Origin: Aquiluna borgnonia
Lineage (GTDB): Bacteria; Actinomycetota; Actinomycetes; Actinomycetales; Microbacteriaceae
Direction of reading: 5' to 3'
Length of the DNA stretch: 64,000 nt
Assembly (NCBI RefSeq): GCF_013283855.1
Contig: NZ_CP054056.1
Coordinates: 1 to 64,000, forward strand
The notes beneath the pieces are model-generated. The model searched no databases and was not told the origin of the DNA. It saw only the letters and a program-made list of their open reading frames with translations. Each line of letters opens with the position of its first letter. Within the stretch, counting starts at the first letter, position 1. Both the position numbers and the translations under genes were made by a program. Below are positions 9,709 to 16,815 of this stretch, piece after piece.

Positions 9709-9781
9709 GGGGACTTAGCTCAGTTGGTAGAGCACCTGCTTTGCAAGCAGGGGGTCAGGGGTTCGACCCCCCTAGTCTCCA
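9709..9781 (+). tRNA. tRNA-Ala(TGC), integration target
   Basis: Acceptor GGGGACT pairs with AGTCTCC (one G-T wobble), the anticodon loop is TTTGCAA with anticodon TGC, and the T-loop is TTCGACC. The 3' end TAGTCTCCAC (9773-9782) recurs at 16353-16362, marking this tRNA as the attachment site of the downstream integrative element. Confidence 0.96.
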
Positions 9782-9782
9782 C
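9773..9782 (+). repeat. attL core (tRNA-Ala 3' end)
   Basis: TAGTCTCCAC at the 3' end of tRNA-Ala, identical to 16353-16362. Only 10 bp are identical, shorter than many tRNA att cores, though a GGGGTTCG stretch also appears upstream of both copies at different spacing. Confidence 0.7.
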
Positions 9783-9791
9783 CCATAAGGT

Positions 9792-9823
9792 AAGACCCTC
9801 TAGAAATAGGGGGTCTTTTCCTT
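9792..9823 (+). terminator. Intrinsic terminator after tRNA-Ala
   Basis: AAGACCC (9792-9798) pairs with GGGTCTT (9811-9817), followed by TTTCCTTT. It would end the tRNA transcript inside the integrated element. Confidence 0.75.
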
Positions 9824-9837
9824 TACCTTTCGTTATT

Positions 9838-9858
9838 TGTCGTAAATGTTGTCGTAAA
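9838..9858 (+). repeat. Arm-type repeat, left copy
   Basis: A 21-bp sequence built from two TGTCGTAAA/TTGTCGTAAA units, identical to 16278-16298. Placement about 55 bp inside the left core suggests an integrase arm-binding site. Function is inferred. Confidence 0.65.
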
Positions 9859-9907
9859 TCTGTAATCGCTCAGTAACGCATTACAAAAGCATTATCTCGT
9901 CCAGGGA

Positions 9908-10042
9908 CTACTTGTCTTTTTTAGGCTGGTTCGAAACTGAAGTTTGGCTTGTTTGAGGCTGACTCTTAGGCTTTGGTGTAACTTCACGGGCTGCCCTTTT
10001 TTCACCTTGCGGGTTAGACGGTTGTGTATTTGATTCACTCAT
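9908..10042 (-). CDS. Small hydrophilic protein, 44 aa
   Basis: A short reading frame of 44 codons starting at ATG 10042 and ending at TAG. It encodes a polar, Pro/Gln/Ser/Lys-rich product (begins MSESNTQPSNPQGEK, ends KKDK) with no hydrophobic core. It lies 12 bp after the membrane-protein gene in the same direction, so it could be the last gene of the methyltransferase cassette. No clear Shine-Dalgarno site is visible. I do not recognise a family; it may be non-coding. Confidence 0.4.
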   Translation of the reverse strand: MSESNTQPSNPQGEKRAAREVTPKPKSQPQTSQTSVSNQPKKDK

Positions 10043-10054
10043 GATTGGGCCGAT

Positions 10055-10429
10055 CTACTTTGTGTTCGCGAAGAGAAAGTAAGCCAGGGAGAGCAAGCCA
10101 CCTACGAAGGTCATAACTCCGATGATGTTAAAAGCATTGATGAAGATGTCCAGGCAACCATCGGTTTCTTCCCGATCGGCGTCTATCTGGTTGATTCGTC
10201 GGCGTTTGTCTGCCTGTTCAAATAAGAGTGCAATCAAAACACTCAAAACAGCGATAAACATTGCACCCCAGGAGAGTTTGATGGCCCAACTTTCTAAAGA
10301 TGCAGCCTCAGTCCCAAGAAGTGCCACCGAGATCGCCAGCACACCTGAACCAACGCTGATGATGAGCCGATCTACTTCTCGGTATGAATCCGTTAGTCGA
10401 CCCTGAAGGCCCTCTCGTCTTGAACTCAT
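10055..10429 (-). CDS. Small three-helix membrane protein
   Basis: A 124-residue protein with a charged N terminus, hydrophobic segments at about residues 22-42, 50-70 and 98-119, and a charged cytoplasmic-looking loop (EQADKRRRINQIDADREE) between the second and third. No family recognised. Its ATG is 2 bp beyond the stop of the DUF262-HNH gene, so it is tightly coupled to it. In defence cassettes such a protein could be an effector or a regulator, but nothing in its sequence proves this. Confidence 0.75.
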   Translation of the reverse strand: MSSRREGLQGRLTDSYREVDRLIISVGSGVLAISVALLGTEAASLESWAIKLSWGAMFIAVLSVLIALLFEQADKRRRINQIDADREETDGCLDIFINAFNIIGVMTFVGGLLSLAYFLFANTK

Positions 10430-10431
10430 GT

Positions 10432-11598
10432 CTACTTGTTGCCCTTGGCGCGATTGTGGGTTTTACAAAGCATCTGGCAGTTCTCAAGGCTTGTGGCTCC
10501 ACCTTTGCTCCAGGCAGCAACGTGATCTGCGTCCATTTCGTCCAACTTCCAAACCCTTGCCCTATTGGCGTCGGTGCCAATAGCGCAGAGGGGACAGTTA
10601 GAAACCTCTTTGATCTGTGCGTCGGCAGCCTGCCTCGCGTAAACGGATTTCTTTGTTGGTTCGTCGAAGACCCGGACTTCAATAAGTTTGGTGTCCAGCT
10701 CGCCGCCTAAAACGAACTCCCAAATGCCTTTGCGGTTCTTAACGTACGCGTCTCCATAGAGTGCTTGTATTCGCTCAGAGACCTTTGAAGGGTCGAACGC
10801 CTTTCCATGATATTGCTCGTAGAGGCGCCCCCACTCCAATCCACGCATTTCATTTTCGACATCAGTGAAAACGGTTGATACCCAGTCGATGACTGTAGTG
10901 AAGTAGGTTTTTACCTCATTGATGTTCTTGTCGAATCGGTGCTTGCTCAAGTAGCCGCCGATGTTGTCTTTGCCGCCGGCCACCCACTCGAGGGCACGTT
11001 CCCAGTACTCTTGGCGGATAACGGCCCCCGAAATGTAGGCGCTCCACTTTTGTATGTTTGAGTTTTGTGAGTTACTGAACTCTTCTTTTCCTAGCGTTAC
11101 AAACGGGCCACTATAAACCGCGTTCAGGAGCTCCTGAGCATTAAGCGGAACCCCGGCGATGTTGATGGTCTGGAACCACTCTTTGATTTCCGTCTCTGTG
11201 CCTTCGCACTCGTAGACGAGTAACTTCGATTCCAAGATTTTGTCCTGTTTGTCGGTGGCGAGACCACTGAAGTATTGCTCCATTCCGTTTTCGTCCTTGA
11301 TGGCGAACTTGCCAGTGATGAATCGCCCAAAACTTGTGATGCGCTGTTGCCCGTCCAACACTTCTAGGCTCTCCTCAGAAACTCTGTTGAAGTATATGAG
11401 CCCGAGCGGGTAGCCCTTCAGAAGTGACGTGATGACAGCAACGTCACGCTTTCCGTCGGCGTAAATGTAGTTGCGTTGATACTCGGGCTGAATAGTTAGA
11501 CGACCGGCGAGGCCGTATAGACCCTTCCCCTCGAGTTCGTTGTATTGAAAACCGTTCGAGATTTCTCGAATGGTGTATTCCTTGAGGTCCGTCTTCAC
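10432..11598 (-). CDS. DUF262 - HNH endonuclease protein (GmrSD/SspE-like)
   Basis: A 388-residue protein combining an N-terminal DUF262 domain with a C-terminal HNH nuclease. DUF262 is marked by [11 protein letters not shown] (about 36-46) and the nucleotide-binding motif DGQQR (82-86). The HNH has a CPLC knuckle (335-338), DADH (356-359), N373 and CKTH (378-381), so its zinc and catalytic residues appear intact. Known relatives with DUF262 (GmrS/GmrD, SspE) are nucleotide-dependent restriction factors. The start GTG 11598 overlaps the methyltransferase stop by 4 bp (GTGA), so the two are translated as a pair. I infer a restriction partner for that methylase. Confidence 0.88.
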
Positions 11599-12788
11599 TT
11601 CGCTGCCTTTCTGTGGCGGATCAGGACGCGGGCGTAAACCTGAATGAGTGATTTGCCATCAACTTTGTAGTAGGTGGACGACGGGGTCTCGGTCACAACG
11701 ATGGCAGCGCCATCATTCAGTTTCCCAACCTGACTTTCTTTTCCATCGGTTGAAACCTGTGTCTGGGTTGAATAGTTTCGAGTTTTCAATCCAGAATCAT
11801 CATTCCAAGTCTTGGTTATACCCAAAATCTCAAACTGCTCGGGACTGTACTTGTGTAAGAAACTGATTGGTACTCCCATGACTCCGGCGTAGTCACTCGG
11901 GATTGCATCAGTGTGCGGAACTTCGATCGCGTTGTAGTTATCGTATTTTCGATAACCGATACCCTTCACATCTTGGTGCTTGCTGAACTTGAAGTTGTCT
12001 GCCTCGCTCATCAAGGGCAGGGGCTCATGACGACGACCATGTTCAATGTTTGTGAACCAACGAACCCCAGGAACCCTAATGAACTTGTTTCCCTGCTCAT
12101 CCACACGGAGGGAGTTGGATCGCGTCACGCTCGCAGGCGGAACTTGGAACTCTCGATCTCCAGAATGGATGCTCGCTCCCAACCAAACCTTGTTATTCAT
12201 CAGCAGGGGGAAAACTTCTTTGTAAGTGATCGCGTTCATGTTGCCGATGATTGTGAACTTTTTGTCTGCCTCCACAATCCAGGCCAAGAACTCGCGGAAG
12301 AGGCTGAACGGTGGGTTGGTGATGACGATGTCGGCTTCGTCCCGAAGAGCCATAATCTCGGCGCTCCGAAAGTCTCCGGTTCCATCCAGGTAGGTCCACT
12401 CCAAGTCGTCAACGTTTACTCGGTTGTCTCCATTTACGTCCTCGGTGAGTGTAAAGATTTTTCCATTTTGCACGGATTTGTCTTCATCATATTGCGGACT
12501 CTCGATTTCAAAGAGGGTCGGCTGGAGATGCAGATCTTGAGGCTTGCTTTTAGGGGCATAACTCGTGCTGACCAGTTTCTTGAGGCCTAGCCTTTCGAAG
12601 TTCTGCGCAAAGTACTTTGTGAAGTTGCTCCATTCGGGGTCATCGCATGGGAGCAGGATGGTCTTCCCCTTGAACACATTCTCGTCATATTCGAGATATG
12701 CATTCATTTCTTTTTCGATGTCGTGGAACTGCGTATAGAACTCATCGTCCTTCGCTCTTTTTGCGTCCCCCAGGTTTTGATTAGCCAC
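11595..12788 (-). CDS. EcoRI-family adenine-specific DNA methyltransferase
   Basis: A 397-residue N6-adenine methyltransferase resembling M.EcoRI along its length. Family-typical blocks are DDEFYTQ (14-20), [16 protein letters not shown] (46-61), GTGDFRS (136-142), the catalytic [11 protein letters not shown] (158-168), a [15 protein letters not shown] block, and near the C terminus YDNYNAIEV and [19 protein letters not shown]. Start is GTG 12788 after TTGGGGT. Unlike the classical EcoRI system, no EcoRI-like endonuclease gene is present; the downstream partner is a DUF262-HNH protein. Recognition sequence is unknown and need not be GAATTC. Confidence 0.92.
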
Positions 12789-12893
12789 ACCCCAATCTTA
12801 AGCCAGCGTTACGACAATAAGGGGAGAACCCTTGGAAGGGGACTTTGTCTCATCCTAGATATATGCTTGGACGTCCATTCGGAAGGACTAGTC

Positions 12894-13388
12894 ATGCCGC
12901 GACAATCAACATCGCTCTTAACAATCGGACCACGCCTTCTGTCGCCTTGGGCCGATCGTGCGTGGCGCGTCTCTGCTTCGGCGCAGCTCGTTTCTGGATC
13001 AGGTGCCTATTGGATCGTCACTCCAACCTTGCCCGCCCAGCACGCCGTGTCGCAGGCAGAAGTGAGCGTCTCTGCCCCGTTCCCCGAGGCCGTCGTGGAT
13101 AGTGTTTTGTTTCTTTTGGCCGCTCACTTCGGAGACAACGAAGTCGAAAACTATTTGGTAGAAACGCACAATGTGAGCCTAAAAGGTGGCACGCGCGAGC
13201 TGGCGCCTTTCTACGAACTGGCCGACACAGCAAGGGATTATCTTGCGAGCAAAATGTCGGCAGTTGTGCGTTTAGGTTTCACACGCTTGGACGACCTAAG
13301 TCTTGTGAATGACGAAGTGGTTGCTGCTCTACTGCGTTACGGCTTCGACGTTGAGGTCTATGACCTGACTTCAACTCCTGAGGTTTAG
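12894..13388 (+). CDS. Hypothetical protein, 164 aa
   Basis: Transcribed divergently from the methyltransferase. ATG 12894 follows a good GGAAGGA site at 12881-12887; an in-frame extension further upstream would run into the methylase gene and is unlikely. The product is soluble, acidic in its second half, and ends with a helical segment (DDLSLVNDEVVAALLRYGF). I do not recognise a domain. Position opposite the R-M-like cassette leaves a regulatory or immunity role possible but unsupported. Its end overlaps the end of the opposing small gene by 18 bp. Confidence 0.7.
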   Translation: MPRQSTSLLTIGPRLLSPWADRAWRVSASAQLVSGSGAYWIVTPTLPAQHAVSQAEVSVSAPFPEAVVDSVLFLLAAHFGDNEVENYLVETHNVSLKGGTRELAPFYELADTARDYLASKMSAVVRLGFTRLDDLSLVNDEVVAALLRYGFDVEVYDLTSTPEV

Positions 13389-13616
13389 ATAAGCGCTCAT
13401 GATTTCGACACCTCTGATGTTCTCGTGCACCCACCATCTGAGGGTGATGGGGAGATTCGCTGCAGTCGCAGCTGCAGTTTCGTTGGGATGCAGGTGAATG
13501 AAATCAACAATCCCGTCCACTCCGTCCTCTGTGATTGCGATACAAAGGGGATCGGGTGTGGTGGCTCGAAAGACACCGCCAACGGTTTGAACTACGGCTT
13601 CATACATTTCATTCAT
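13371..13616 (-). CDS. Hypothetical protein, 81 aa
   Basis: A small acidic protein (starts MNEMYEAVVQTVGGVF) whose ATG overlaps the stop of the preceding gene by 4 bp (ATGA). It contains an IAITEDGVDGIVDFIHLHP stretch and a WW pair but no recognised domain. It is the last gene of a four-gene set on the minus strand inside the element. Confidence 0.6.
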   Translation of the reverse strand: MNEMYEAVVQTVGGVFRATTPDPLCIAITEDGVDGIVDFIHLHPNETAAATAANLPITLRWWVHENIRGVEIMSAYLNLRS

Positions 13617-13846
13617 GAGATGTCCAGACCCTTGTCGTTGCGAGCTCGCTCTTTTGGTGGGTTTGGATTGGCTGTCTTGTATCTCTTGTAAATCTCGGGG
13701 ATGTTTGATTTCTTTGTCGAATAGCCATTACTTGTTCGGGGAATATGTGGCGCTACGGTAGGCGCCTTCAGTCCAGGTAAGTGATCCCTCCGGACCTTCA
13801 CAGTGGTGTTCCAGTTTGGCAAAAACAACTTCAATAGCCAGTTCAT
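13613..13846 (-). CDS. Hypothetical basic protein, 77 aa
   Basis: Starts at ATG 13846 (MNWLLKLFLPNW) after GGAGAATC, a better site than an in-frame GTG at 13888 which would lie within an inverted repeat. The N-terminal 12 residues are hydrophobic, the rest is strongly basic and polar (PEIYKRYKTANPNPPKERAR). This could be a membrane-tethered or nucleic-acid-binding peptide. No family recognised. Confidence 0.5.
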   Translation of the reverse strand: MNWLLKLFLPNWNTTVKVRRDHLPGLKAPTVAPHIPRTSNGYSTKKSNIPEIYKRYKTANPNPPKERARNDKGLDIS

Positions 13847-13863
13847 GATTCTCCGATGTAGGT

Positions 13864-13893
13864 GACGGGTGTCCACACTCGTAGACACCCGTC
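13864..13893. repeat. 10-bp inverted repeat within the small-gene operon
   Basis: GACGGGTGTC (13864-13873) and GACACCCGTC (13884-13893) form a perfect stem with a 10-nt loop in the gap between two minus-strand genes. No T-run follows on either strand, so it is more likely an RNA-processing or protein-binding hairpin than a terminator. Confidence 0.6.
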
Positions 13894-13901
13894 CAATCTG
13901 G

Positions 13902-14150
13902 TTAGTGGCTGGGCGGAACCATCTGCGCGATTACACAGGTCACTTCCAACCGGTCGTATGTGTGCTCTAACCAAGTCCTAGCGGCATTGGCCACTCCGTC
14001 CGTCGACACGTCCAACACAGCAGCGCGTTTGAGGTTTGGTGCGATAGAAGTAACTGGAATGTCGTCCTCGCCCTCGTAGATGGCAATCTCGCCCCTTGGC
14101 GTTAGGTAGGCGAGGAACAATCCGATGTTTGTCTCAATCAGTATTTTCAT
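13902..14150 (-). CDS. Hypothetical protein, 82 aa
   Basis: A small acidic protein beginning MKILIETNIGLFLAYL and containing a GEIAIYEGEDD turn. Its ATG overlaps the stop of the upstream gene by 4 bp. No domain recognised. It is part of the four-gene minus-strand set. Confidence 0.6.
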   Translation of the reverse strand: MKILIETNIGLFLAYLTPRGEIAIYEGEDDIPVTSIAPNLKRAAVLDVSTDGVANAARTWLEHTYDRLEVTCVIAQMVPPSH

Positions 14151-14572
14151 GACACGTCCTGCCCTTCTGTGACTCTAGAAGAGAGGTATTGCGCCTGAGC
14201 CTGCTTGGCCGCTTTTGCTTCCCCGCCTTTTCGGGCGCGTTCAATCCGTTCGGTTTTGTCTTGAATGTGTTGCGCCGCACCGCAGTCGATTCCGACTCCT
14301 GGCACCTCTGTCCAGATTCCGGCGGCGATCAGGTGACTCGCTGCGTCCATCACGCTGGGAGTGCTTGCCGCACCCACAATGATGTGTCTTTCTAGTTCAA
14401 GGTGTGAAACCGTTTCGGTTTCGAAGGCGATGCAATATCCGGTTGACGCTAGGTATAGACCGAGGCAGGCCAGCACCTGCTCCTCTGGAATCTGCGCCCA
14501 TTTTCTGTCGTTGCCGACGTTGTGTGGCACTGCCCACCAGCCTGGTGCTGGGGTGCTGCTTTTGGTAGTCAT
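14147..14572 (-). CDS. Possible replication-type winged-helix protein, 141 aa
   Basis: Residues about 12-100 resemble in layout the N-terminal winged-helix region of actinobacterial phage/plasmid replication proteins: an initial W-A-V-P strand, a helix with EEQVLACLGLYLAS, and a SHLIAAGIWTEVPGVGI hairpin, then a basic coiled C terminus (RIERARKGGEAKAAKQAQ). This is pattern resemblance only. ATG 14572 follows AAAGGAGT, which is itself part of a hairpin (14579-14604). It heads the small-gene operon. Confidence 0.6.
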   Translation of the reverse strand: MTTKSSTPAPGWWAVPHNVGNDRKWAQIPEEQVLACLGLYLASTGYCIAFETETVSHLELERHIIVGAASTPSVMDAASHLIAAGIWTEVPGVGIDCGAAQHIQDKTERIERARKGGEAKAAKQAQAQYLSSRVTEGQDVS

Positions 14573-14578
14573 TTGATG

Positions 14579-14604
14579 ACTCCTTTCTTTTTATGTAAAG
14601 GAGT
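14579..14604 (-). promoter_or_regulatory. Hairpin that can mask the ribosome binding site
   Basis: ACTCCTTT (14579-14586) and AAAGGAGT (14597-14604) are perfect inverted repeats with a 10-nt AT-rich loop. On the minus-strand transcript the 3' arm is the Shine-Dalgarno sequence for ATG 14572, so folding would hide it. Confidence 0.5.
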
Positions 14605-14858
14605 TATCGGCGTGACTTTTTATTGAGGTTTCACTTTCTGCCCCAGCACTGCTAACAGAACAGAACAGACCAAACACAACAGATTAGAGAGTTTCGATGT
14701 GAGTGAGCGTTCGGGAATGGGGGGTTGTCAGGGGGGAGAGAACGGAATGTTTTTGCTTTTGTTGAGTATCTCGAACTCCCTTGTCGCTGGAAGCGACAAG
14801 GGAGTTCGGTTGACCAAAATGCGAAAACTTCCGGTGGATGAATACTTATGAGAACGAG
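14605..14858. other. Non-coding block with AACAG repeats, G-runs and a hairpin
   Basis: No gene is supported between the integrase stop and the small-gene operon. The block holds three tandem AACAG pentamers (14654-14668) and one more at 14678-14682, G-runs at 14713-14715, 14719-14724 and 14731-14736, and a perfect 17-bp inverted repeat at 14772-14808. The combination resembles a replication or excision control region; the function is inferred. Confidence 0.45.
14772..14808. repeat. Perfect 17-bp inverted repeat
   Basis: CGAACTCCCTTGTCGCT (14772-14788) is repeated inverted at 14792-14808 with a 3-nt spacer GGA. Neither side has a T-run, so it is not a standard intrinsic terminator. Confidence 0.8.
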
Positions 14859-16259
14859 TTAGTTGTCAGGGGTTACTGAACTCTTGATCTGAGCAGGTCT
14901 CTCGATAGGTTCGCCAAACTCTCTGCTCATTGCATCCTGTGAAGCACGAGCGTAGTAGGCGTCAAGTTTGCTGTGAGCAGAGTGACCCATAAACCTTCTC
15001 AACATTTCTCTGCTGACTCCTCTACCGTCTGGCCCTCCGTAGTTTGCCCAGTAGGTTGCGCAAGCATGGCGAAGAGAGCCAGGTGAAAGGTTTCGGTATT
15101 GGATCCCGTACTTTTCCATGAACTCATGGAAGAGTGCTGAGTCGTTGTTGAGTTTCTCAGCAGAGCCGTCTTCTCTCAAAAGCACAAGGTCGGCGAAGTC
15201 CGGTCGTGCGCGCCAGCTGGAAGCGTTTTCTGGTTTTAGTGCTTCTTCTCTTCGTGCTTTTGCCGCGATTAGGAATGGACGGGTTATGGGCGTGATTTCA
15301 ATAGTTCGTGCCTCGTTGGCCTTTAGTCGTTCGTCCAAGAAATCCGGCTGTCCAGAGACGTAGTTCATTTGTCGCTGGATTTTCATTTTGCCCCCGGCCA
15401 AGTCAATGTCTGAGTGCTTTAGCCCGCAGCGCTCGCCTCTCCTAAGTCCCTGGCCATAAGCGAGTGCCCAACGCAGTGCTAGGGGATCGGCTATGACCTC
15501 TGGGCGCATCAAAAGCGCGTTTATCTCCCACATGATGTGGTCGATATCTTCAGGAATGCCAGCCGGTTCAAAGGACATTTTGATTCCCACGTCCAAGAAC
15601 TCACCTTCTTCAAGAAGGCCTTTTGCGCCCGCTCGATTCAGTCCCGATCTGAAGACGGAGTAGATGCCTCTGATTCTCTTGTCGCCAAGAAGCCTTTGGT
15701 CGTTATCGTCCAAAACGTTCGGAAGAGTTTCGGTGAAGTGAACTCGCGTTTGCTGGTGGGTCAGTGCTGTCAAGAGAATGCTGCCCAGGTAGGGGTAGAT
15801 CCACTTTTCCAGCATGGTTTGGTTTCGCTTGGCTGTGTTTTCAGCCCATCGGTTTTGAGGGAGCGTATTTGGGTTGGTTTTCGAGGCAACGTACTCCTCC
15901 AAGAAAGATTGGACGGTGTAGGCGGCCCTGCGTTGCTCCTGGGTCAATCTTTCCGGGTTGCGTTCGCGAACTCCGTCTGATCGTTCCATCCAGAACGCCA
16001 GAATCTTCTCCCGGCACTTGGCCTCCGCGTCGGCAGCGCTTTCGCTGCTAGAAGCGGTGATCTGCGGCCGTATTCTGGTGTCATCTTCCGCCCTGGCAAC
16101 TTCTGGAATGTCCCAGCAGCCCTCCCAGTATGGAATCGTGACTGGCTGTCCGCCCTTGGTGCCTTTCCGGCTCTTGTGGCTAACCCAGATGCTAAACACT
16201 TCGGCCTCCGGCGCGAAGTCCACTTCCGCTATGAGCGGTTCGTTTTCGTAATCCCCCAT
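14859..16259 (-). CDS. int: Tyrosine recombinase / phage-type integrase
   Basis: A 466-residue site-specific recombinase. The N-terminal part includes an arm-binding-like segment and a SAM-like core-binding region (about 120-220). The catalytic domain shows GLRRGERCGLKHSDID (first Arg, about 272), SLRHACATYW (second Arg, about 394), MGHSAHSKLDAYY with the conserved GH and the nucleophilic Tyr (about 433). The usual His of HxLRH is Gly here. ATG 16259 is chosen; a longer frame would run across the att site. Arm-type repeats sit 19-50 bp upstream of the start, so the integrase could repress its own promoter. Confidence 0.92.
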   Translation of the reverse strand: MGDYENEPLIAEVDFAPEAEVFSIWVSHKSRKGTKGGQPVTIPYWEGCWDIPEVARAEDDTRIRPQITASSSESAADAEAKCREKILAFWMERSDGVRERNPERLTQEQRRAAYTVQSFLEEYVASKTNPNTLPQNRWAENTAKRNQTMLEKWIYPYLGSILLTALTHQQTRVHFTETLPNVLDDNDQRLLGDKRIRGIYSVFRSGLNRAGAKGLLEEGEFLDVGIKMSFEPAGIPEDIDHIMWEINALLMRPEVIADPLALRWALAYGQGLRRGERCGLKHSDIDLAGGKMKIQRQMNYVSGQPDFLDERLKANEARTIEITPITRPFLIAAKARREEALKPENASSWRARPDFADLVLLREDGSAEKLNNDSALFHEFMEKYGIQYRNLSPGSLRHACATYWANYGGPDGRGVSREMLRRFMGHSAHSKLDAYYARASQDAMSREFGEPIERPAQIKSSVTPDN

Positions 16260-16277
16260 GCCACGAGAATACGCCTC

Positions 16278-16310
16278 TGTCGTAAATGTTGTCGTAAACC
16301 TGTCGTAAAC
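16278..16310 (+). repeat. Arm-type repeats, right copy
   Basis: A 21-bp block identical to 9838-9858 (16278-16298) plus a third TGTCGTAAA unit at 16301-16309. It lies between the integrase start and the right core, the expected place for arm sites. Confidence 0.65.
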
Positions 16311-16352
16311 TCGCCCAGAAGCCGTCTCTGGCGGGGTTCGTTTGGATACCCA

Positions 16353-16362
16353 TAGTCTCCAC
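16353..16362 (+). repeat. attR core
   Basis: TAGTCTCCAC identical to the tRNA-Ala 3' end. What follows (from 16363) is probably the original chromosomal flank, including the original tRNA terminator. Confidence 0.7.
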
Positions 16363-16369
16363 AAACAGA

Positions 16370-16405
16370 AAATCTCCCTCCGGAAACGGAGGGGGATTTC
16401 TTTTT
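16370..16405 (+). terminator. Intrinsic terminator, probably the original tRNA-Ala terminator
   Basis: CCCTCCG (16376-16382) pairs with CGGAGGG (16387-16393), extended by AAATC/GATTT, and followed by CTTTTTC. It lies just outside attR. Confidence 0.75.
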
Positions 16406-16410
16406 CTGGC

Positions 16411-16815
16411 TTAGTGCTCGAGAACGTATGTTGCGTAATTGTTGAGGATCGACTGCCAGCCCTCGCGCTGCATTTCAACTTCATTCTCATCTTCAGCATC
16501 GAATTCGACCGTCACTTTTGAGCTATCGCCAACTTGTTCGAAGACCACCCTGGCAGAGCGATCACCGAAGGAGTACTCCAGGAGATTGTGCTGGACGATG
16601 TTTGTGTAGGTGCCCTCGAAGTCAAACTCGAAGCTTCCGTCTTTTGCCTCCATGTGTGAGGAGAACTTTCCACCAACCCGGAGGTCAACCTTCGCGTCCC
16701 TGCACTGCCAGTCATCGGATGCAAAGTTCCACTGGTTTATGGCGTCTGGGGACACGTAGGCATCCCAGGCTTTCTCAACTGGAGCGGCTATTTCGACGGA
16801 AACAGAAATTTTCAT
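16411..16815 (-). CDS. AHSA1/SRPBCC-domain protein
   Basis: A 134-residue START-like beta-grip protein. It begins MKISVSVEIAAPVEKAWDAYVSPDAI and contains WNFASDDW, a SPDAINQW-type helix and a C-terminal GWQSILNNYATYVL helix typical of AHSA1/polyketide-cyclase-like families. The ligand is unknown. It is the first chromosomal gene right of the integrated element. Confidence 0.85.
   Translation of the reverse strand: MKISVSVEIAAPVEKAWDAYVSPDAINQWNFASDDWQCRDAKVDLRVGGKFSSHMEAKDGSFEFDFEGTYTNIVQHNLLEYSFGDRSARVVFEQVGDSSKVTVEFDAEDENEVEMQREGWQSILNNYATYVLEH

Follow-up and report, generated by a model that had tools for sequence, protein, structure and literature searches.

In the Type III restriction-modification systems (Mod/Res), the specificity module is located in the methyltransferase, the second subunit is constant, and both module exchange and phase variation occur. 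M.EcoRI, a methyltransferase of 326 amino acids (aa), protects GAATTC (PMC4081073). Among the nucleases with a DUF262 domain, GmrSD and BrxU target DNA with modified cytosines (PMC12707154, PMC3874153, PMC4619093), a DUF1524 C-terminus being part of the definition of GmrSD (PMC4619093), and DndI and SspE sense phosphorothioate, which is coupled to nucleoside triphosphate (NTP) hydrolysis (PMC11662687, PMC13251355). LlaJI is a Type IV-related nuclease that acts on unmodified sites with partner methyltransferases (PMC12707154). The subject of the present analysis is a two-gene cassette of Aquiluna borgnonia (Microbacteriaceae), in which an EcoRI-family adenine methyltransferase is followed by a DUF262-HNH nuclease; the window referred to below is the whole stretch of 64,000 nucleotides (nt) that was analysed (NZ_CP054056.1, positions 1 to 64,000 of the forward strand), and coordinates given without a locus name are those of the window. 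Comparison with related loci (designated L and a number) showed that two segments of the methyltransferase, VR1 and VR2, behave as discrete alleles exchanged independently of each other, while the nuclease has no such segments and, with its motifs intact, is constant.

The methyltransferase-nuclease pair and its variable segments

The ORF check of the window gave four open reading frames (ORFs), all on the minus strand and all within 9908-12788, in the transcription order methyltransferase, DUF262-HNH nuclease, membrane ORF and 44-aa ORF. The methyltransferase gene (11595-12788, minus; 397 aa, GTG start) is proposed to encode the specificity-carrying component, and the nuclease gene (10432-11598, minus; 388 aa, GTG start) an NTP-dependent nuclease without target specificity of its own. 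The genes and their coupling are real. An earlier note, made from the sequence alone, had placed the methyltransferase in the M.EcoRI family, had denied that its partner was an EcoRI-like endonuclease, and had reported instead a DUF262 protein with an intact HNH and a GTGA overlap. All of this was borne out: the methyltransferase matches EcoRI_methylase (PF13651) with 430.8 bits (E 5.5e-129; cut-off 26.4), the partner is a DUF262-HNH protein by Pfam (GmrSD_N, PF03235, 75.8 bits, cut-off 33.2; HNH, PF01844, 31.9 bits), the methyltransferase stop and the nuclease start overlap as GTGA at 11595-11598 (minus; read from the window sequence), and the coordinates, the DGQQR motif and the HNH residues hold. 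The same note knew of no described system with exactly this set of genes; the pair itself, however, is already annotated by family for both genes in public records and is matched by PADLOC, the methyltransferase by MTase_II (E 6.8e-95) and the nuclease by the REase_II model PDLC03418 over residues 17-387, i.e. full length (E 8.8e-86). The nuclease family had thus been collected earlier among putative Type II enzymes.

Relatives were taken from the phylum (396 genomes, of which 32 matched in any way), plasmids (111 records, 43 of them matching over a long stretch), phages (11 records, 4 of them matching over a long stretch), viral contigs (42 loci) and GTDB genomes (the best 80 of at least 581 relatives, with at least 592 matching stretches). 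An EcoRI-family methyltransferase was located upstream of the nuclease, on the same strand and within 2 kb, in 121/121 loci having at least 50% nuclease identity and at least 1 kb of upstream sequence (one phage is present twice, L046/L078), and 58 of the 110 directly adjacent pairs had a 4-nt gene overlap (copies of the window's own locus included); the pairing is evidently not due to chance. Conservation of gene order, which the earlier note had proposed to check, holds for the pair, but the three-gene set with the membrane ORF recurred in one other fetched locus (L091).

The NPPF motif of the methyltransferase (aa 158-161) was invariant in 84 aligned members, and the enzyme presumably methylates adenine at N6. 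Its AlphaFold2 model (single chain, as for the nuclease) had a mean pLDDT of 89.4 and a pTM of 0.86, and a PDB sequence search gave no relative (best E 0.81). In the nuclease, the DGQQR motif (11341-11355, minus; aa 82-86), a nucleotide-hydrolysis motif of the DUF262 family whose role is assigned by analogy with DndI (PMC11662687), was present in 88/88 sequences of one alignment and in 122 of the 123 paired nucleases, the most distant one having DGKQR. The C-terminal HNH domain with CxxC pairs (10435-10596, minus; aa 335-388; PF01844), which probably binds zinc, retained D358-H359, N373 and N382 in 123/123 paired nucleases and H381 in 115/123. By domain, the nuclease model (pLDDT 87.5, pTM 0.61) matched BrxU (E 7.6e-4, the sole match below 1e-3), CDP-bound ParB, the Gme HNH nicking enzyme and EcoKMcrA in the PDB with Foldseek, SspE being lower. 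The protein is predicted to use NTP and to cleave DNA.

In the alignment of 123 paired loci, two stretches of low conservation were found between conserved blocks of the methyltransferase, namely VR1 (12063-12179, minus; aa 204-242), a putative target-recognition module, and VR2 (11631-11831, minus; aa 320-386), a putative second one; no stretch of the nuclease was as low. The alignments were restricted to methyltransferases of 310-450 aa that were not truncated at a contig end, and the set of 122 loci used below is without L046 (same phage as L078), which the first pair comparison of 123 loci still included. Note that VR2 was taken as aa 323-384 in the pair table and as aa 320-386 in the allele-family and control comparison. 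Mean pairwise column identity (122 loci, 7381 pairs) was 0.60 for the methyltransferase core, 0.25 for VR1, 0.21 for VR2 and 0.65 for the nuclease, and the least conserved 20-residue interval in this set was at 0.15 in the methyltransferase versus 0.43 in the nuclease; a third methyltransferase stretch, aa 81-120, was moderately conserved (0.33-0.39). In the methyltransferase model, VR1 is strand-rich and of lower confidence (pLDDT 69-80 by block), and VR2 is a folded strand-rich insert (pLDDT 85-97).

With a 50% identity threshold, 137 methyltransferases gave 23 allele families for VR1 and 47 for VR2, and the identity values of the segments were bimodal, clearly so for VR1. Among the 21 locus pairs with a nuclease identity of at least 0.88, both segments differed (<0.4) in 14, one in 4 and neither in 3. 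VR1 was common (at least 0.7) to 315 pairs, in 291 of which VR2 was below 0.4; VR2 was common, by the same threshold, to 103 pairs, in 87 of which VR1 was below 0.4. When the core was at 0.6 or less (n = 3831 pairs), VR1 was common in 102, VR2 in 24 and both in none. In the family comparison, pairs alike in both family labels were somewhat commoner than by chance (42 versus 25.7 expected). Nuclease identity did not depend on whether two loci were alike in VR1 family (112 loci; difference 0.0005, permutation p 0.43, with kinship ignored here and in the column tests), and the columns at z>4 for VR1 amounted to 2/312 in the nuclease and 55/255 in the methyltransferase core.

At the DNA level, L099 and L100 are mostly 87-100% identical across the methyltransferase and the nuclease, with drops at codons of about 200-245 (47-64%) and about 325-380 (31-56%; 45-nt bins), some neighbouring bins being at 78-89%, and identity falls off past the nuclease stop; 385/386 nuclease residues are alike, and the methyltransferases are 96% identical in the core, 27% in VR1 and 16% in VR2. 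Between L165 and L166, VR2 alone has been replaced (DNA 13-24%), with identity beginning at the methyltransferase start and ending at the nuclease stop and with 372/387 nuclease residues alike. The nucleases of L144 and L145 are alike in 376/387 residues, and their methyltransferases differ more broadly.

Tandem methyltransferases or spare cassettes were present at six loci among 130 DUF262-linked methyltransferases; a seventh locus, L084, has an interrupted gene. Two methyltransferases stand ahead of one nuclease in L051, L057 and L090, with unlike VR1 (0.16-0.25) and cores 0.66-0.85 identical. In L061, a pair of 18-nt perfect inverted repeats (L061:3938-4320) has one of its arms at the edge of VR2 within the methyltransferase, and the interval enclosed by the arms encodes, on the opposite strand, a further VR2 with a C-terminal tail, open to its stop; this arrangement is possibly an invertible specificity switch. 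An additional VR2 copy is located downstream in the same orientation in L064 and L145, and at VR2 or close to it the methyltransferase gene contains GA-repeat runs in L145 (26 nt; region L145:2545-3997), L064 (12 nt; region L064:3644-4997) and L138 (16 nt), which may be sites of slippage or recombination. As a separate observation, L102 carries a 66-nt copy of the nuclease start region (L102:3814-3879; 94% identical) ahead of the real nuclease gene, the scar of a rearrangement at the junction, and L051 has a remnant similar to this copy.

R.EcoRI-linked methyltransferases and the placement of M.EcoRI

A methyltransferase of the same family adjoins R.EcoRI in seven plasmid loci, from E. coli, Klebsiella (two), Raoultella, Leuconostoc, Staphylococcus rostri and Rhodococcus; the enzymes are six distinct ones, that of Raoultella being the same as one of Klebsiella, and that of S. 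rostri, unannotated, was matched by translation. The R.EcoRI-adjacent methyltransferase of E. coli pU90-3 and that of the window are 41.8% identical over an aligned 82%. These loci served as a natural control: among the seven, VR1 was 0.62-1.0 and VR2 0.70-1.0 identical though the cores drop to 0.56, while the DUF262-linked pairs with cores at 0.5-0.6 (n = 3174) had median identities of 0.27 for VR1 and 0.23 for VR2. An EcoRI-like VR1 was found together with another VR2 in DUF262-linked L049, L074, L077, L111-L113, L116, L121, L143, L160 and L161 (Polaribacter irgensii 23-P), and an EcoRI-like VR2 together with another VR1 in DUF262-linked L064, L118, L123, L138 and L157 (Gillisia mitskevichiae DSM 19839).

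The tree was reconstructed from the core columns in one FastTree run, with L176 (same methyltransferase as L171) dropped. The R.EcoRI-linked methyltransferases formed one clade (0.997; enclosing clades, 0.915, 0.959 and 0.792) inside the DUF262-linked ones, and were nested both when the tree was rooted at its midpoint and when the distant L010 served as root, by FastTree only. Two further relatives of R.EcoRI are annotated with other methyltransferases, with no match to that of the window, and thus R.EcoRI also changes partners. Apart from these, Rhodococcus pyridinivorans has a separate, longer DUF262 protein (L087:4828-6618) 0.8 kb downstream of the R.EcoRI pair, which was unmatched by the window nuclease in the searches, and the record of Helicobacter phage Pt11509_1 (H129) is annotated with an EcoRI methyltransferase and an EcoRI endonuclease.

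Proposed mechanism and competing explanations

We consider it somewhat probable, from the sequence comparisons, that the pair constitutes a two-gene mobile restriction-modification system, in which the methyltransferase holds the target specificity and guides a constant nuclease that is itself without target specificity; the logic is most likely Type III-like and the nuclease Type IV-like. The methyltransferase would mark adenines of host sites, with VR1 and VR2 setting the target, and the DUF262-HNH protein, predicted to be a ParB/Srx-fold NTPase (DGQQR) joined to a McrA-type HNH nuclease, would be the constant effector that cuts or nicks DNA with sites unmethylated for the current methyltransferase. 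Having found such a site, the methyltransferase would most likely license the nuclease, whose activity would be NTP-gated, in the way that Mod licenses Res in Type III. Whether VR1 or VR2 were replaced through recombination, through a spare cassette that inverts or through a second methyltransferase in tandem, marking and restriction would shift together, and the nuclease would remain untouched. The self/non-self logic and the guidance by the methyltransferase are inferred. Changing target modules beside a near-identical nuclease are hard to reconcile with an enzyme that recognises the methyltransferase site unaided; the constant nuclease should be either guided by the methyltransferase or reading the mark instead of the sequence.

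Several points weigh against this mechanism. No assay of any family member was found in the literature, and the DNA contact of VR1 and VR2, i.e. target reading, is putative. The fold search with the methyltransferase gave no match at E of 1e-3 or lower (the weak ones include RNA methyltransferases and M.TaqI), and the full-length fold match of the nuclease is weak (best E 7.6e-4, TM 0.19 by query; pTM 0.61). Six DUF262-linked pairs with cores of at least 0.9 mostly agree in VR1 (median 0.93), so that exchange is not seen in every close pair. Nuclease similarity is slightly higher between loci of one VR2 family (+0.019, p 0.003; the same 112 loci, kinship ignored), which we read as shared ancestry, and 3/301 nuclease columns were at z>4 for VR2; as this compares with 4/244 in the methyltransferase core, linkage to VR2 is, by this test, about as low in the nuclease as in that core. 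The nucleases of L041 and L045 are 84% identical whereas their methyltransferase cores are only 55% identical, which speaks against a tight protein-protein interface, unless the interface is conserved. Finally, the characterised DUF262 nucleases (GmrSD, BrxU, SspE and DndI) sense modification themselves according to the papers cited above, which favours an explanation by mark sensing.

In that explanation, the nuclease would have little sequence preference, as in DndI, and its DUF262 domain would read N6-methyladenine, whereupon NTP hydrolysis would be stimulated and the enzyme released from self DNA, with no methyltransferase contact needed. DndI is a DUF262-HNH nickase of which the ATPase is stimulated by phosphorothioate on self DNA, followed by release (PMC11662687), SspE couples mark recognition to GTP hydrolysis (PMC13251355), and a constant nuclease serving different alleles with cores only 55% identical would be accounted for. 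We nevertheless regard mark sensing as rather unlikely, since hosts with abundant unrelated N6-methyladenine would be blind to phages grown in kin, and if the methyl group alone counts, it is less easy to see why changing target modules should be selected for. Of 16 genomes with the cassette, 4 have a Dam-family match above the cut-off, two of these matches being strong (hosts of L169, E 3.3e-91, and L147, E 2.0e-86); this points the same way, although the argument is weak as GATC methylation is not proven by the family. The nuclease might instead recognise the short site of the methyltransferase by itself, as in a conventional Type II system, VR1 and VR2 not setting the target; the PADLOC assignment to Type II restriction enzymes, the two-gene layout and the Type II nature of the R.EcoRI pairs of the same methyltransferase family agree with this. 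Nucleases alike in 385/386 residues beside wholly different VR1 and VR2, the fixed segments of the R.EcoRI-linked loci examined, and the small number of nuclease columns varying with VR family make it improbable.

BrxU, the best structural match, brings to mind a Type IV enzyme that cuts modified phage DNA like GmrSD and BrxU, with the methyltransferase as a separate passenger; given the linkage in 121/121 loci, the overlapping genes, and a C-terminal domain that is PF01844 HNH and not DUF1524, we think this very improbable. Least credible of all is that VR1 and VR2 are fast-evolving loops and not exchanged modules. Their varying length and their position between conserved blocks would suit loops, but the bimodal identities, the sharp DNA mosaics and the existence of spare and inverted VR2 cassettes do not, nor does the occurrence of similar alleles on diverged cores (VR1 alike at 0.7 or more in 102/3831 pairs with cores at 0.6 or less). 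Returning to guidance by the methyltransferase, the complete proposal is that a constant GmrSD-like NTPase-HNH nuclease is programmed by a single methyltransferase whose two target modules can be exchanged independently of each other, an architecture outside Types I-IV that has spread over phyla and phages, with built-in switching at some loci, and that M.EcoRI descends from it, its lineage having lost the programmable nuclease and taken R.EcoRI, with the target frozen at GAATTC; to this proposal as a whole we give an even chance.

Setting of the cassette and comparison with known systems

The nuclease was 65-78% identical to that of the window in the best 80 of the at least 581 GTDB relatives, which by their titles belong to Patescibacteria, Bacteroidota, Chloroflexota, Clostridia, Proteobacteria and Actinomycetota among others, 54-76% identical in the 42 viral contigs, and 73.7% identical in Flavobacterium phage laban6-1; because the identity is this high across phyla and in a phage, the cassette moves horizontally. 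Within the window's own genus, it was found in 1 of 22 genomes (the window's own), and one other had only a weak match of 73 residues. Among the weak nuclease matches (24 loci other than the window's own, L004-L010 and L011-L032), 15 showed no EcoRI methyltransferase within the short fetched flank; these were all in L011-L032, more distant DUF262 or HNH proteins, and L004-L010 all have one. More distant DUF262 proteins, it seems, need not have an EcoRI-family methyltransferase partner. No conserved third gene between methyltransferase and nuclease was common to the 18 gapped loci inspected, of which L051 and L090 contain a second methyltransferase in the gap, except for a 200-aa ORF common to L107 and L108, which we take to resemble a GIY-YIG/T5orf172-type protein. 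Mycobacterium phages Hami1, Norz and Marchy (H125-H127) have an EcoRI-family methyltransferase 47% identical to that of the window, and the phage nuclease search gave no match there; these methyltransferases could be orphans for self-protection.

In the window, the copies of a 10-mer, TAGTCTCCAC, at 9773-9782 (plus; left attachment core, in the 3' end of tRNA-Ala) and 16353-16362 (plus; right attachment core) flank the cassette, and 26-nt near-identical arm-like repeats are present at 9838-9863 and 16278-16303. The congener G654 (L193) has the uninterrupted site with a single TAGTCTCCAC copy, where the tRNA is directly followed by sequence aligning to the window from 16349. Thus, the cassette sits in an element of 6.6 kb (9773-16362) with a tyrosine integrase (14859-16499, minus; PF00589, 42.6 bits), whose actual start probably lies within the right boundary (16362). 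Four small ORFs of the element tested at 12723-14572 had no Pfam match. The element is downstream of putative gyrB and gyrA, as read from the sequence.

The membrane ORF (10055-10429, minus; 124 aa) starts 2 nt past the nuclease stop and has three hydrophobic stretches by a simple hydropathy count. In L091, from a Microbacteriaceae metagenome-assembled genome, the gene of a 46% identical relative shares 4 nt with the nuclease gene at its stop; the profile search found none in all other fetched loci, with one further weak match in L082 (E 0.0065). No relative was found in the viral contigs, plasmids gave one weak match (E 4e-3), and 247 other genomes of the order gave three weak matches, in frames of 461-499 aa. 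Aurantimicrobium L092, with 76% nuclease identity, has no membrane-like ORF after the nuclease, and such an ORF of any kind followed the nuclease in 27/121 loci (own copies included; there is no control rate for comparison). The membrane protein was thus rejected as a core component, its relative being in L091 only among the fetched loci, and the gene looks like an add-on of one lineage. Of the suggestion in the earlier note of a restriction system with a membrane component, the restriction system stands as very likely, and the membrane component finds no support. The 44-aa ORF (9908-10042, minus), a predicted ORF only, which the note had considered a possible member, was rejected as a gene of the system, since it matched no family and had no relative among the fetched loci, to which the search for relatives was confined.

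The gene families and the pair are already catalogued. In the open-licence literature searched, neither the pair nor an exchange of modules among EcoRI-family methyltransferases was found described, and the same applies to modular specificity with a constant GmrSD-like nuclease, to the switching devices and to the placement of M.EcoRI inside the family; a 16.2-kDa HNH enzyme of Paracoccus (PMC11473606) is a different protein, and the mentions of DUF262 in PMC7785942 and PMC4978471 are unrelated. If the proposal is true, restriction would be reprogrammable by the cartridges of one protein, with the nuclease unchanged, in a two-gene cassette of about 2.4 kb, i.e. a compact programmable restriction system; more than 100 paired modules would form a natural panel, anchored on GAATTC, for the recognition code of adenine methyltransferases, and M.EcoRI would have an origin. 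The results suggest that the methyltransferase, not the nuclease, would decide which DNA sequences get policed. The system also offers a direct test of DUF262 self/non-self discrimination with plain N6-methyladenine as the mark.

Compared with the EcoRI system (Type IIP), the methyltransferase family is in common, but the partner there is R.EcoRI, the upstream gene in the records, and here a DUF262-HNH protein downstream; VR1 and VR2 are fixed there and exchanged here. No match to HsdS or HsdR of Type I was found in the four ORFs. GmrSD and BrxU (Type IV), the latter the top PDB match, share with the window nuclease the DUF262 domain with DGQQR and an HNH-type nuclease, but they act on modified DNA and have DUF1524, whereas the window protein has a PF01844 HNH, gives no DUF1524 match and has an obligate methyltransferase partner. 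LlaJI differs from the system in the window in that its restriction side includes McrBC relatives together with a B3 DNA-binding domain. In SspE and DndI, a DUF262-HNH effector is also tied to a DNA-marking partner; there, DUF262-DUF1524 goes with phosphorothioate partner genes, and here a PF01844 C-terminus goes with a methyltransferase, the mark presumably being N6-methyladenine. With Type III, the system has in common an exchangeable module in the methyltransferase, for which exchange is shown and target reading is proposed, and a constant restriction subunit, with possible phase variation as a further parallel; Res of Type III has helicase motifs, whereas neither the methyltransferase nor the nuclease here gave a helicase family match, and the effector is a predicted ParB/Srx-like NTPase with HNH.

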